A DNA stretch of 64,000 bases from Luscinia megarhynchos. Lineage: Eukaryota; Chordata; Aves; Passeriformes; Turdidae. Within the stretch, counting starts at the first letter, position 1; every line of letters starts with the position of its first letter. The translations under genes were made by a program, and so were the position numbers. Below the pieces are notes generated by a model. It was not told the origin of the DNA. It saw only the letters and a program-made list of their open reading frames with translations, and searched no databases. Positions 53,793 to 64,000 of the stretch are shown here, piece after piece. The stretch spans positions 310,001 through 374,000 of the forward strand of contig CM067584.1 in the NCBI GenBank assembly GCA_034336665.1, read 5' to 3'.

Positions 53793-56700
53793 ATGAATCT
53801 CCCTGTAAGTATGCCTACTTTTCTTCCTTATACATTGAAACTTTGATTCAAACCCATTCCTTTACCCCTCAGAAGGGCTTCTGCCTCTCTACAGCACTAA
53901 GGCTTTCTCTGGGGACATTTTGCTGCTCCAGAATGAGCAGCTCACACCTGTTCCCCAGAGGAGCTGAGGAGGTAAGGATTTTTTCACAGCTTGGCTGTAC
54001 ATTATTCAGAAAATAGGAAGCCTAATCCACATCCATTATTGTCAATGCTTTTGCACAACTGGAGCACTGCAGCAGTGGATCAAGCCCTGTAATGCCAGAG
54101 CAGAAGAAATGGAAAAGCTTTCTCCTCACTCTTGTAAAACACCTGTGTGCACCTGCACAGGTCTGAGAAACAACTTGAGATTCAGGTCTTGAAAGAGCAA
54201 GTGTGAAATGCGTCTGCTTTGCAGCACCCTGGGGTGGAGCAAGGCTGCCTCCCTTTTGGGGCACAGATGCAATCCCAGGATGAAAGCAAAAAAGGATCCA
54301 ATGAGAGTCCTTAAACATCAGATGAGGAAAAGGGAAGGAGAATTCTCATGACCAGATTTGTCAGCCAGTGCTGCAGTTACACTTTTGTATTTGATTTTCA
54401 TTTCAGATTTTGACTGCAGTCCTTCTTGGACTGGTCCTGACTCCAGCCCTTGCTGATTATGTGAGTACAGTGACCAATTTCCACATGAATGGCTCCTCTG
54501 CCTCTATTCCCTGCTTCATAAAATCCCCTTGATTCTTTCTCCAGTCCTTTGAAGGAAAACAATTGAAGTCTTCTCAAACGGATGAAACTCTAAAGGCACC
54601 AGATGACAGGTGTCAGATGTAGCAATGAATCCTTGAAAAGAATTTTGATGGCTATCTTCATTGGCTGTCAAATGCCAATACCTTGATTCTGGGTCTATTT
54701 GAAAATACTGAGGGTACTCCTGCCTCTTGGGGTGGGGGGGGGNTCTAAAGGCACCAGATGAGAGCTGTCAGATGTAGCAATGATTCTGAATCCTTGAAAA
54801 GAATTTTGATGGCCCCTGGCCAAAGCAGAGCATTGACGGGGTCTTGAAAATACTGTGACAGTACCAACACTTTCCGAGGGGCAGCAATTCCTCCATTGTA
54901 GCAGGGATTTTTCTAAAAGCTTTGGGGCCATCACTGTCTCCATTCAAAAGGCAAATCTCTTCTTTTCCCTTGGCTTTTTAGTCTCAGCAGATTCCAGGCA
55001 GCATCTTCAACAACACGCAAATCATCTTTGGTGGCCGAGACCCCAATTTTGTGACCATCAACAGGCAATGGCGCGTGGCAGTCATTGAGCAAAATGAGCT
55101 GGCGGTTCCTGGAAAACTATATGGAACTACAACAGGGTGAGTGGCAGAGGACGGGGCTCATTCAAAAAGCATCCAAGAATTCTGGCTCCTAGTACAGCCG
55201 GCCCAGGGGTGGCAAATGTTCTTTCAAACATTTGCATTCCACGATGCAGGGGCTATAAACTCTCAGAATTTTGGTATGGTTTTCCATCCTGACTTTGACG
55301 CTAATACTGACAGTTGGAAAAACTGAATTGTGAGAGCTGGATAATTTTCTTTCACAGGGCGTCATTGCAACCAAAGTCACGCAACAGAACACCTGCTACA
55401 TTTCCATCATGAACAGAACTGAGATGCCCAGCTTTGATAATCTGGCCCGCCTGGCTGCAGAGAGCAGGGTAAGATTCCAAAAGGAGTAGCAGGTTCCTGG
55501 CCCCGCAGATCATCGGGCCATTTCTTCATGTGCTTTTTCTTTCTGGAGAGGATCAGGTTGCCCTAGTGGCAGATTTCTTTCACTCACCCGTAATATAGAG
55601 GGGAAATTTGTTACAGAAATGCTTTGCCAAAGAAGAAAGGGACTGCATTATAGTCTCCCCCGACTTTCTCTGAGGATGTTGAGGATGTCTGCAGCTTGCT
55701 GGGCAAACCTGGTTTCTGTGCAGCCCTGCAGTGCTTTCCTTGCACTGCTACTTCCTTTCAGCATACCTGCACCTTGACTCTCTTAGAACAACCTCCTACC
55801 CTTAGAGATGCCTACAAGGCTTGCTAGTGGTTCCACAGTCACCCCCAGGGGAATTAAAAAGTTGTCTCTAAAGGCAGCTTGGACTCAAACACCCCGCCAC
55901 AGGTCAACATTCCAGAGCTAGGAACAGCCCCAAGCTACCAGCTCCTGACACTGAGCTTGCTGAATGTTGGGTTTTCATGTTTAGAACCTGCTCGGCCTTG
56001 GACGACCTACCAGGAAGATCACCTTTGTCACCAGTGGATTGGTCAACAACCTCAGGAATTACGGAATAGACATCACCGCTATGTGCAGTGGACTCACCAC
56101 CTACATGGCTTACGAAGTTCACAGTGAGTGCAAGCATGGGAATTCTCAGTGCTACTGACCTGGCCTTTGTGTCTCCTGGGGCATGACTAAGGCACCACTG
56201 CCGCTCTTCCTCCTGAAAATCCAGGGACACCAAGGGTTTCTTTCAGCAGTTGCACAAAGGGTTTGGCACCTCTGCAGATCAGGACTGCAAGAGGCTGGCG
56301 TCACAGCCCCCATAAATGAACCAAACCAAACCCTTATAGCTCATCTCCAGAAACCTTAAAGGGGATGAATGTTTGGCTCAAAATGTTCCAGCCAGCACAG
56401 AACTCCCCAGTTATGCCCAGTCAGGAAGAACGGTCATTCTAAGACGGCCTGCTGTCCTACAGATTAGAGCTTGCTAATGAGTTTATCCAAGCAACCCCCA
56501 AACCCATGTGCTTCACAACACTAAATCAAGTGGCTTCGATCCTTGTAGTTTTTTTCCCTGAGGCAACAATCCAATTCCCCGGGGCTTTAATGACCTACAC
56601 TTGATAGGAGTCTTTCAGAATATCACAGCCCATGCGACAGGGCCCATGAACTGGCAGCAGCCTCACCGTGTAATGCCCAGCCATCGGGACTCACAGGAGC

Positions 56701-59700
56701 CAGTGCAATAGAGCCCCAACTTGTGCACGGGAAATCCCAAAGGGTTTTCAAGAGCACGTCTTTGTGGGCATCCCTTCCTGAGCCACAGAGCCAGTGATGC
56801 CAAGAGACTCTCTCCTGTGTACAGCTCAAACATTCCGAATGCAGCAATTCATCAGAACCTTGCTGGCTCTGAGCAACACCAGCTCTCCTGCAGAAAGGCA
56901 GACAAGGTCTTAGGCATTGGCTCATGGCATTTTGTCTTTTCTTTTCCAGCCTTCCAAGGACCCCAGACGACTCTGGGATCTTGCATTACCCTCGATGTCC
57001 TGAGAGCTGTGGAGCTTCAGTACTGCATTGGCAATGGCAATTGGAATGGCAACTGGAATGGCAACTGGAATGGCAACGACAATGAAAACTGGAATGGCAA
57101 TTGGAATGGCAACAGCAATTGGAATGGCGGTTGGAATGGTAATAACAATTGGAATGGCGGCTGGAATGGTGGTTGGAACGGCGGTAACAACTGGCATGGC
57201 GGTTGGAATGGCAGTTGGAACAGTGGTAACAATTGGAATGGCGGTTGGAATGGCGGTTGGAACAGTGGTAACAATTGGAATGGTGGTTGGAACAGTGGTA
57301 TCAACTGGAATGGCGGTTGGAACAGCGGTTGGAATGGCGGCAACATTTGGAATGGCAATTGGAGTGGCAACGGACAGGTGAGAATTCCTTAGCCCGTACC
57401 AAATTTCTTAGACCAAATGGGGGGACTCCAGAGCTGCTGCCTAAAGCCAACCCTGATGCCCTTCTTTCTTGGCATCTCCTCTTTGAGAGCTTCCTGCTGG
57501 AGGCTGCAGATGCTTTAAAAGAGCAATGGCTGTGGTTTCCATTGAAGACCTTGAGCATGAATTTACTGTGGCCAGGGCTCTTGCACAAACCAACGTCTAA
57601 AGGCACAAAATGACAGCTCTCAGATGTGGCAATGATTCTCTGAATCCATGAAAAGATTTCTTACGGCCTCTGCCCAACACCACAGCCTTGATTCTGGGTC
57701 CTTTGGAAAACACTGAGGGCAGGGCTGGCACTTCCTGGGGGGGCAGCAATTCTTCCATTGTCACAGGGATTTTTCTAAAGCTTTGGGGACATCACTGTTG
57801 CCCTTCAAAAATGAAATCTCTTCTTTCCCTTGGCTTTTTAGTCTCAGCAGATTCCAGGCAGCATCTTCAACAACACGCAAGTCATCATTGGTGGCCAGTC
57901 CCAAATTGTGACCATCAACAGGCAATGGCGCTGTGGCAGTCATTGAGCAAATGAGGCGGCGGTTCCTGGAAAACCATCTGGAACTACAACACGGTGAGTG
58001 GCAGGGAGGTTGATCGATGAAAAAATCATATGAGGACACTGTCTCCTCATACATCTGGCCTAGAGAGGATGATTGTTTCTTTATCCCAAACATTTGGAGT
58101 CCACAACATGGAGCAGTAAAAGTCAGCATGTGTTATGGTTTCCATCCTGACTTTACCCCAACATTAAGCAGTTGGAAAATACAGAATTGTGAGTGCTGAA
58201 TAATTTCATTTCACAGGGCGTCATTGCAACCAAAGTCACGCAACAGAACACCTGCTACATTTCCATCATGAACAGAAGCGAGATGCCCCGCTTTGATAAT
58301 CTGGCCCGCCTGGCACAAGAGAGCAGGGTAAGCTTCCAAAGGAGTAGCCGGTTCCTGGCCCTGGAGATCATCGGGCCACTTCTTCATGTGCTTTGTCTTT
58401 CTGGAGAGGATCAGGTTGTCTCTAGTGGCAGACTTTCCTTTCTCTAAACAGTAATGCAGATAAGGAATTTATGGTAGGAACGCTTTGCCAAAAGAAGAAA
58501 GGGGCTGCATTAGTCCTTCCCCCAGCTCCACTTTCTCTGAGGATGTTGAGGATGTCTGCAGCTTGCTGGGCAAAGCCTTGCTCTGAGGAGCCCTTCAAGG
58601 ACCTTAATCCTTTTGGAATGCCTGGATCTCAGAGTTCCTCATAGACTGTTCAGTACCAAGCTGCATTGGTCAGCTCCAAACTTGTTGTCGCAGCTACTCT
58701 TGGCCAGACTCCCTTGTCCCTTGGGGCATGAGAGAGCGTCACCCTATTCCTGAACCCTTCCCCCACATTCATGGGATGAGCCACAACTGGAGGCTTGTGG
58801 CCCTAGCTAAGGAAAGTGCTAGAGAGCAGAGGGAAGCCAAGGGCGTGGGAGGAGACAGTAGGAAAGCAGCAAGAGACGTGAGCCAGGCCACACATCATTC
58901 CAGGAGGACAAGAGAGCGGCAATTTATCTGAAACAAAGCCCTCTGGAACTGTTTGAAAAGACCTGTCCCACTAGAGCACCCAGAGGTCACAGAGAGGGGC
59001 CCTAAGCATCTCCTGCAAGTGGGCCGATACGTTTGCTCTCTCTCAGCTTCCAGGTTAGAACGGGCTGCAGGAAGAGACTTCTCCTGCCGGCCTTCTACCC
59101 GACAGCCTGAGTGCCTCTGAGGGGCCAGGGCAGCGACTGAGCAAATGCTCTGGAAGGAGCTCTGGCTCCACAGAGCGGCCGCACTCCACATCTCCTCTTC
59201 AGTGCTTTCCTTGTGCTGCCACTTCCCTTCACGCTCCGTGCACCTTGACTCCCTTAGAACAACCTCCGCCTTTAGAGATGCCTACAAAGCTTGCTAGTGG
59301 TTCCACAGCCCCCAGGGGAAAAAAAGGCATCCCTAAAGGCAGCTTGGACTCAAACACCCCGCCACAGGTCAACATTCCAGAGGAACAGCCCTAGCAAAAA
59401 CCAGCTCCTGACACTGAGCTTGCTGAATGTTGGGTTTTCATGTTTAGAACCTGCTCGGCCTTGGACGACCTAACAAGAAGATCACCTTTGTCACCAGTGG
59501 ATTGGTCAACAACCTCAGGAATTACGGAATAGACATCACCGCTATGTGCAGCGGACTCACCACCTACATGGCTTACGAAGTTCACAGTGAGTGCAAGCAT
59601 GGGAATTCTCAGTGCTACTGACCTGGCCTTTGTGTCTCCTGGGGCATGACTAAGGCACCACTGCCGCTCTTCCTCCTCAAAACCCAGGGACACCAAGGGT

Positions 59701-63975: not shown

Positions 63976-64000
63976 GTGAGTGGCAGGGAGGTTGATCGAT
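63823..64000 (+). CDS. Gastrokine-like module 4 (type B), cut by the window edge
   Basis: Only exon 3 is present (63823-63975, 153 nt, intact, 51 codons with VIEQMSGGGSWKTIWNYNT), followed by a GTGAGT donor. Its ATCATTGGTGGCCAGTCCCA and CAAATTGTG spelling matches module 2, so it is type B. The array therefore continues to the right. Confidence 0.75.

Follow-up and report, generated by a model that had tools for sequence, protein, structure and literature searches.

A stretch of 64,000 nucleotides (nt) from the perching bird Luscinia megarhynchos (assembly GCA_034336665.1, contig CM067584.1, positions 310,001 to 374,000 of the forward strand; hereafter the window, with positions counted from its first letter) ends in a gene whose BRICHOS-encoding exons are repeated in tandem, which raises the question whether the copies give one long protein or several short ones. 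The reading we consider likely is that the locus is a gastrokine-1-like gene in which one signal exon is followed by tandem BRICHOS blocks that begin and end in phase 0 and are spliced head to tail into a single secreted chain. Membership of the gastrokine-1 family is indicated by gastrokine-1-like bird proteins being the closest relatives and by a signal peptide, the exon of which was judged by similarity. The best relative modules are 82-89% identical to those of the window, and the proteins are named gastrokine-1-like or uncharacterized. The gene consists of the following elements; P-numbered relatives, here and below, are predicted proteins, not transcripts.

53730..53737, + strand: TATA-like box TATAAAAG, a TATAA match 63 bases 5′ of the ATG and a likely promoter
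53793..53804, + strand: coding part of exon 1 (MNLP) as read from the sequence, ATGAATCTCCCT, then donor GTAAGT
54407..54460, + strand: exon 2, signal peptide ILTAVLLGLVLTPALADY by similarity to the N-termini of relatives, for example P0045 and P0075
54982..57377, + strand: block A1 with exon 3 (54982-55136, frame broken), exon 4 (55358-55468), exon 5 (55985-56123) and exon 6 (56950-57377, with a tryptophan/asparagine/glycine (Trp/Asn/Gly) tail)
57842..60508, + strand: block B1 with exon 3 (57842-57993, frame broken), exon 4 (58217-58327), exon 5 (59448-59586) and exon 6 (60404-60508, without tail, its end one base out of phase)
60974..63358, + strand: block A2 with exon 3 (60974-61126), exon 4 (61348-61457, one base short), exon 5 (61970-62108) and exon 6 (62931-63358, with Trp/Asn/Gly tail)
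63823..63975, + strand: block B2, exon 3 only, followed by the end of the window

Exon 1 and the signal exon are single, as an earlier sequence-only reading of this DNA had stated: a piece of each gave one match in the window with up to three mismatches allowed. That reading also placed exons 3-6 at four sites. Exon 3 indeed starts at 54982, 57842, 60974 and 63823, and exons 4, 5 and 6 are found three times each, so that complete blocks number three and the window ends after the fourth exon 3. All introns and block boundaries are in phase 0 except intron 5, which is in phase 1; each block consequently spans phase 0 to phase 0, in agreement with the earlier claim, and can be added or skipped without a change of frame. 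Overlooked at the time was that the blocks are of two types, alternating in the order A-B-A-B with a dimeric repeat unit of about 5981 bp. Exon 6 of type A comprises 428 nt and encodes the long Trp/Asn/Gly tail (NGNWNGNW...), while that of type B comprises 105 nt and lacks it.

Sequence comparison identified a BRICHOS domain in both module types. Module A and B sequences, pieced together from intact exons, matched PF04089 with 69 and 70 bits (E 2e-19 and 4e-19), the Pfam cut-off being 25. Both contain four cysteine (Cys) residues, where the BRICHOS superfamily has two conserved ones, and the four Cys columns are invariant across 26 relatives. The conserved aspartate (Asp) of the superfamily is absent: all four copies of exon 3 encode WKTIWNYN, with Asn at the Asp place according to a reading of the motif made without alignment to proSP-C. 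Passages of Chen et al. (2022, PMC9627735) report Asn in part of the GKN1 family, and its occurrence here is therefore compatible with BRICHOS membership; in proSP-C and Bri2, the same passages describe the Asp-to-Asn change as giving a compact state that acts more strongly against fibril formation and inefficiently against amyloid toxicity. Since single-domain bird relatives likewise carry Asn, the residue is no mark of the array. A profile of the 26 relatives reached the BRICHOS structure of proSP-C (2yad) only at E 0.39. An AlphaFold model of the type-B relative P0022 had a mean predicted local distance difference test score (pLDDT) of 80.1 and a predicted template modeling score (pTM) of 0.76.

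The passage from one block to the next would be governed by the end of exon 6, which in the two A blocks is organized as follows.

57375..57392, + strand: end of A1 exon 6, CAG, then GTGAGAATTCCTTAG (donor GTGAGA followed by an in-frame TAG); exact match
63356..63373, + strand: end of A2 exon 6, CAG, then GTGAGAATTCCTTAG (donor GTGAGA followed by an in-frame TAG); exact match

The 21-mer at these ends gave two exact matches as compared with 0.01 expected from 100 shuffles. It was correctly noted before that CAG/GTGAGA at 57377 and 63358 is in phase with the next exon 3 and that a TAG follows if the donor is left unspliced; this TAG is the fifth codon. Spliced, the A exon 6 reads ...SGNGQ/SQQIPGS; unspliced, it reads VRIP and stops. 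The donor matches 8 of 9 consensus places in the A exon 6 and 7 of 9 in the B exon 6, the other donors of the gene matching 7 or 8, and the acceptor is the same in every block. B1 exon 6 ends in CCG/GTGAGAAAACCTTAG (GTGAGA), from which the stop peptide would be VRKP, the assembled copy being one base out of phase. No AATAAA is present in 53793-64000, which upholds the statement that none lies between the copies, and ATTAAA is found there only in intron 4 (at 55853 and 61840), so that the three inter-module introns have neither. As evidence for read-through the absence of AATAAA was rejected as weak, because by rough arithmetic only about 0.1 would be expected per inter-module intron of 464 bases.

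Further evidence for joined modules comes from predicted proteins of other birds. Three protein searches yielded 89 of them: 70 from one, 21 (19 new) from another and 18 (none new) from a search with the tail, which scored only candidates sharing most words. Domains were counted with a profile built from the relatives' own modules, and those covering at least 70% of its 156 positions were taken as near-complete. One protein had none, 54 had one, 15 had two, and three, four and five were each found in 4 proteins; six occurred in 2, seven in 1, eight in 1 and nine in 3. At least two are thus present in 34 of the 89 proteins and three to nine in 19. By species names (nine species were looked up), 71 proteins belong to perching birds and 18 to other orders; two or more domains were counted in 33/71 against 1/18, and three or more in 19/71 (14 species) against 0/18. 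These are not census figures, since the searches are biased toward close relatives, toward proteins of a certain length and toward words found in one part of the query. The single multi-domain protein from another order, P0034 of a gull, was discounted as a probable chimera: visual inspection showed a GKN1 portion joined to sequence that also occurs in proteins named ANTXR1 and to a portion resembling the neighboring gastrokine.

Junctions between modules were listed at 117 places in the relatives, and the SQQ-type junction of the window at 76 sites in 25 proteins. Predicted perching-bird proteins in the series P0071-P0087 (e.g. P0074, P0075, P0080 and P0081) resemble the window in that tandem modules are joined at the corresponding place (GNGQ/SQQIP, NFP/TQQIP), and to this extent the earlier proposal of head-to-tail splicing is supported, with gene predictions as its basis. 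Unlike the window, several of them begin and end with module types of their own, and most linkers are short, long Trp-rich linkers or ends being rare: in P0012 a Trp-rich linker separates two BRICHOS domains, P0007 has a Trp-rich end, and at least seven Trp within some 60 residues occur in 6/89 proteins. P0081 and P0082 (isoforms X2 and X3, with signal and five domains) look complete, as does P0074, with a signal recognized by eye, nine domains and a distinct last module. The single-domain bird gastrokine-1 proteins (P0037, P0038, P0045) share with the array the type of signal exon, the BRICHOS domain, the Asn place and the four Cys, but have one BRICHOS domain and no Trp/Asn/Gly tail.

Comparison of the blocks with each other suggests how the array may have been maintained. 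A1 and A2 are 98.1, 98.6, 98.2 and 99.6% identical in introns 3, 4, 5 and 6, compared to 80.5, 91.2, 84.8 and 85.1% for the same introns of A2 and B1; exons 3, 4 and 5 of A2 and B1 are 98.7, 99.1 and 97.8% identical. A1 is more divergent in exons 3 and 4 (94.0 and 94.6% to B1). Sliding identity between blocks is highest over the exons and some adjoining intron, from which we infer exon-centered homogenization, probably by gene conversion between blocks. When copies were mixed so that no broken exon entered the comparison, 3 synonymous and 8 amino-acid differences separated A from B over 163 codons, against a divergence of 15-20% in introns 3, 5 and 6. A selection test on the A and B exons was rejected as proof of protein constraint, because this pattern points to homogenization at the DNA level. 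In-frame gaps in the tails were also judged weak as coding evidence, given that the repeat units of the tail (12, 36, 42 and 72 nt) are all multiples of 3. As separate observations, exon 4 of A1 (55358-55468) and of A2 (61348-61457) are 93.6% identical, which is below their introns (about 98%), and A2 exon 4 is 99.1% like that of B1, possibly reflecting an exon-sized conversion tract; intron 4 of B1 is longer than that of the A blocks by about 600 bases (about 58600-59200, + strand).

Several findings weigh against a single chain. The frame is broken in 4 of the 13 block exons (A1 exon 3 with 155 nt, B1 exon 3 with 152 nt, A2 exon 4 with 110 nt, and the end of B1 exon 6), so that A1, B1 and A2 each have at least one break and 0/3 complete blocks are frame-intact as assembled. 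The chain spliced literally stops at codon 92, and the signal joined to A2 alone also breaks; an open chain with at least two BRICHOS domains is permitted by the phases but not by the assembled frames, and the intact in-phase modules envisaged earlier are not what the assembly contains. The 3 synonymous versus 8 amino-acid differences leave protein-level constraint undemonstrated. Among the relatives, 12/89 proteins end at an unspliced donor (11 in VRKP, one in VRNHYP), at least 6 of 56 sequences examined begin with a peptide encoded by an inter-module intron and have no signal peptide, and a signal-like motif, scored by a pattern of our own, lies near the start in only 9/34 multi-domain proteins, one of these motifs being internal and one belonging to the gull chimera. 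Every joined chain in the relatives is, moreover, a predicted protein and not a transcript. The intron-peptide starts we take for split gene models, although they could be internal starts. The unspliced ends are counterparts of the shorter forms that had been suggested to arise by alternative termination: P0077 stops at GNFHGNGQ-VRKP where P0079, P0081 and P0082 continue with GNFHGNGQ-SQQTGNNC, and together with the joined junctions such ends mean that both fates of exon 6 occur in annotation.

Much of the frame damage looks like assembly noise. Between A1 and A2, 38 gaps of 1-3 bases occur in the 1285 bases of 54700-55984, in introns and exons alike, whereas exon 5, intron 5 and intron 6 together have 2 in 1429 bases (Fisher p 8.5e-11, for a split chosen post hoc and with exon 6, which has 2 such gaps in 428 bases, left out). 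The only N of the window, at 54743, lies beside this noisy start of the array. Exon 3 of B1 and B2 differ by two gaps and zero substitutions, and the coding exon of a TGF-beta family gene elsewhere in the window stays open over 319 codons. These observations put the blame at least in part on the assembly, and the frame breaks are inferred to be mainly assembly errors. The noisy zone does not include the breaks in B1 and A2, so some copies may truly be decaying.

Four other explanations were weighed against the single chain. Exons 1 and 2 could be spliced to one block at a time, each transcript ending at the stop of that block, to give several single-BRICHOS isoforms. The identical acceptor in every block, the in-frame stop shortly after the donor of exon 6, the twelve relatives with unspliced ends and the phase-0 boundaries, which permit skipping, all suit such cassettes, but 34/89 proteins join two or more near-complete domains and, as weak evidence, the three inter-module introns have neither AATAAA nor ATTAAA; we regard this explanation as unlikely. 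Somewhat less probable still is that the array is a recent partial duplication in decay, with real frame breaks and little or no long protein made. The 4/13 exons out of frame, with no complete block intact as assembled, and the 8/11 A-B codon differences that change an amino acid would fit decay. Against it, A2 and B1 are 97.8-99.1% identical in exons 3-5 and 80.5-85.1% in introns 3, 5 and 6, B1 and B2 exon 3 differ without a substitution, and the crowding of small gaps at the A1 start points to sequence errors.

Only a slight chance is given to separate genes, each block having its own promoter inside the array. Annotation often spreads the modules of one species over several loci, and there are the starts in inter-module introns; yet these starts have no signal peptide, while every module has the Cys residues of a secreted domain, and neither the signal exon nor exon 1 occurs more than once in the array. 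It is equally improbable that the copy number is an artefact of assembly, such as one A-B dimer assembled twice. The 99.6% identity of the A1 and A2 inter-module introns over 464 bases and the noisy start beside the N would agree with this, but A and B are 15-20% apart in introns 3, 5 and 6, so at least two blocks are real, several gaps distinguish the A1 tail from that of A2, 15 substitutions distinguish their introns 5, and relatives have up to nine domains.

For the single chain with tandem BRICHOS modules, there is precedent at the protein level. Precursors with up to nineteen BRICHOS domains, multi-domain GKN1 members included, are reported in passages of Chen et al. (PMC9627735); the kind is thus already known, and novelty in kind is not supported for this gene. 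The GKN1 precursors in those passages resemble the present gene in the several BRICHOS domains per precursor, the family, the Asn in place of the conserved Asp and the high identity between modules. They differ in figuring there only as architectures of proteins, with no description of how the gene is built, of a signal exon or of a splice-or-stop site. A literature search on BRICHOS, gastrokine and bird themes, with few subscription journals covered, gave no paper on such a gene structure among the matches listed, and the parts of PMC4666066 and PMC2588339 used here treat single gastrokines, with nothing in them on tandem modules.

Should this bird splice at the exon 6 donor, the Trp/Asn/Gly tail of each A block would serve as a linker to the next BRICHOS domain; otherwise the chain would end within four residues (VRIP or VRKP) and shorter forms would result. 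According to passages of PMC10182729, BRICHOS proteins contain an aggregation-prone region for which the domain has been proposed as chaperone. The aggregation-prone client would here be the tail, turned into a linker once the next module is joined. By analogy with the gastrokine family, secretion in the stomach may be expected, and the product could act there as a secreted chaperone for its own low-complexity linkers, keeping them in solution. We tentatively suggest, as an idea that may well prove wrong, that exon 6 is a composite exon serving as a splice-or-stop ruler, with the donor fused to an in-frame stop (GTGAGA...TAG). Donor use in each block would set the number of BRICHOS domains and Trp/Asn/Gly linkers and so give a splicing-tuned ladder of chaperone polymers from one gene, the gene itself growing in evolution by unequal crossing-over with exon-centered homogenization. 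It appears that a gastrokine of perching birds has gained multiple BRICHOS copies, which in some cases are separated by Trp-rich stretches of low complexity. A product made as one chain would amount to a naturally occurring covalent polymer of chaperones, of use in anti-aggregation work, and the gene would be a clear case of growth by symmetrical exon blocks. Such a gene would also explain bird proteins that are named only 'uncharacterized protein' and one named 'protein PF3D7_1417600-like'.

In a tree of modules, A and B of the window group as sisters (support 1.0) and belong to a clade of 19 members (0.92), whose inner supports are low and which includes modules of Vidua, Lonchura, Serinus, Melospiza, Hirundo and others. 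In Vidua P0080, modules 2 and 4 are nearest to those of the window and modules 1 and 3 stand apart, so a two-type alternation is found there too. In Pithys, Catharus, Anomalospiza and Vidua P0075, the middle modules of a protein resemble one another more closely than they do modules of other genera; in Molothrus, Passer, Camarhynchus and Haemorhous this is not clear. The picture for concerted evolution across species, as judged from these sequences, is accordingly mixed.

The surroundings of the array contain further gene-like features. The TGF-beta family gene, with propeptide and ligand domains, is located at 21113-25822 (- strand) and is probably BMP10, for which we take it; the gastrokine cluster has the order BMP10 - gastrokine - ANTXR1, of which the part downstream of the array falls beyond the window. 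Weak gastrokine-like matches at 42234-42924 (- strand; E 0.02 and 4.5) possibly represent gastrokine-2. A second gastrokine-like gene at 48594-50771 (+ strand) combines a signal-like exon, IVIASLLGVFLAPALSNH, with three weak matches of BRICHOS type, the best with E 0.005; a stretch nearly identical to it is fused to an array gene in the relative P0029. The predicted proteins P0014, P0018, P0088 and P0089 join a terminal array module to GKN1, two of them continuing to ANTXR1, suggesting that the array lies beside GKN1 and ANTXR1 or that read-through transcripts are made. Elsewhere in the window, minisatellite arrays are found at 1416-2054 (25-base unit), 12515-13742 (52), 29880-30607 (14), 31579-31869 (42) and 35426-36635 (19).

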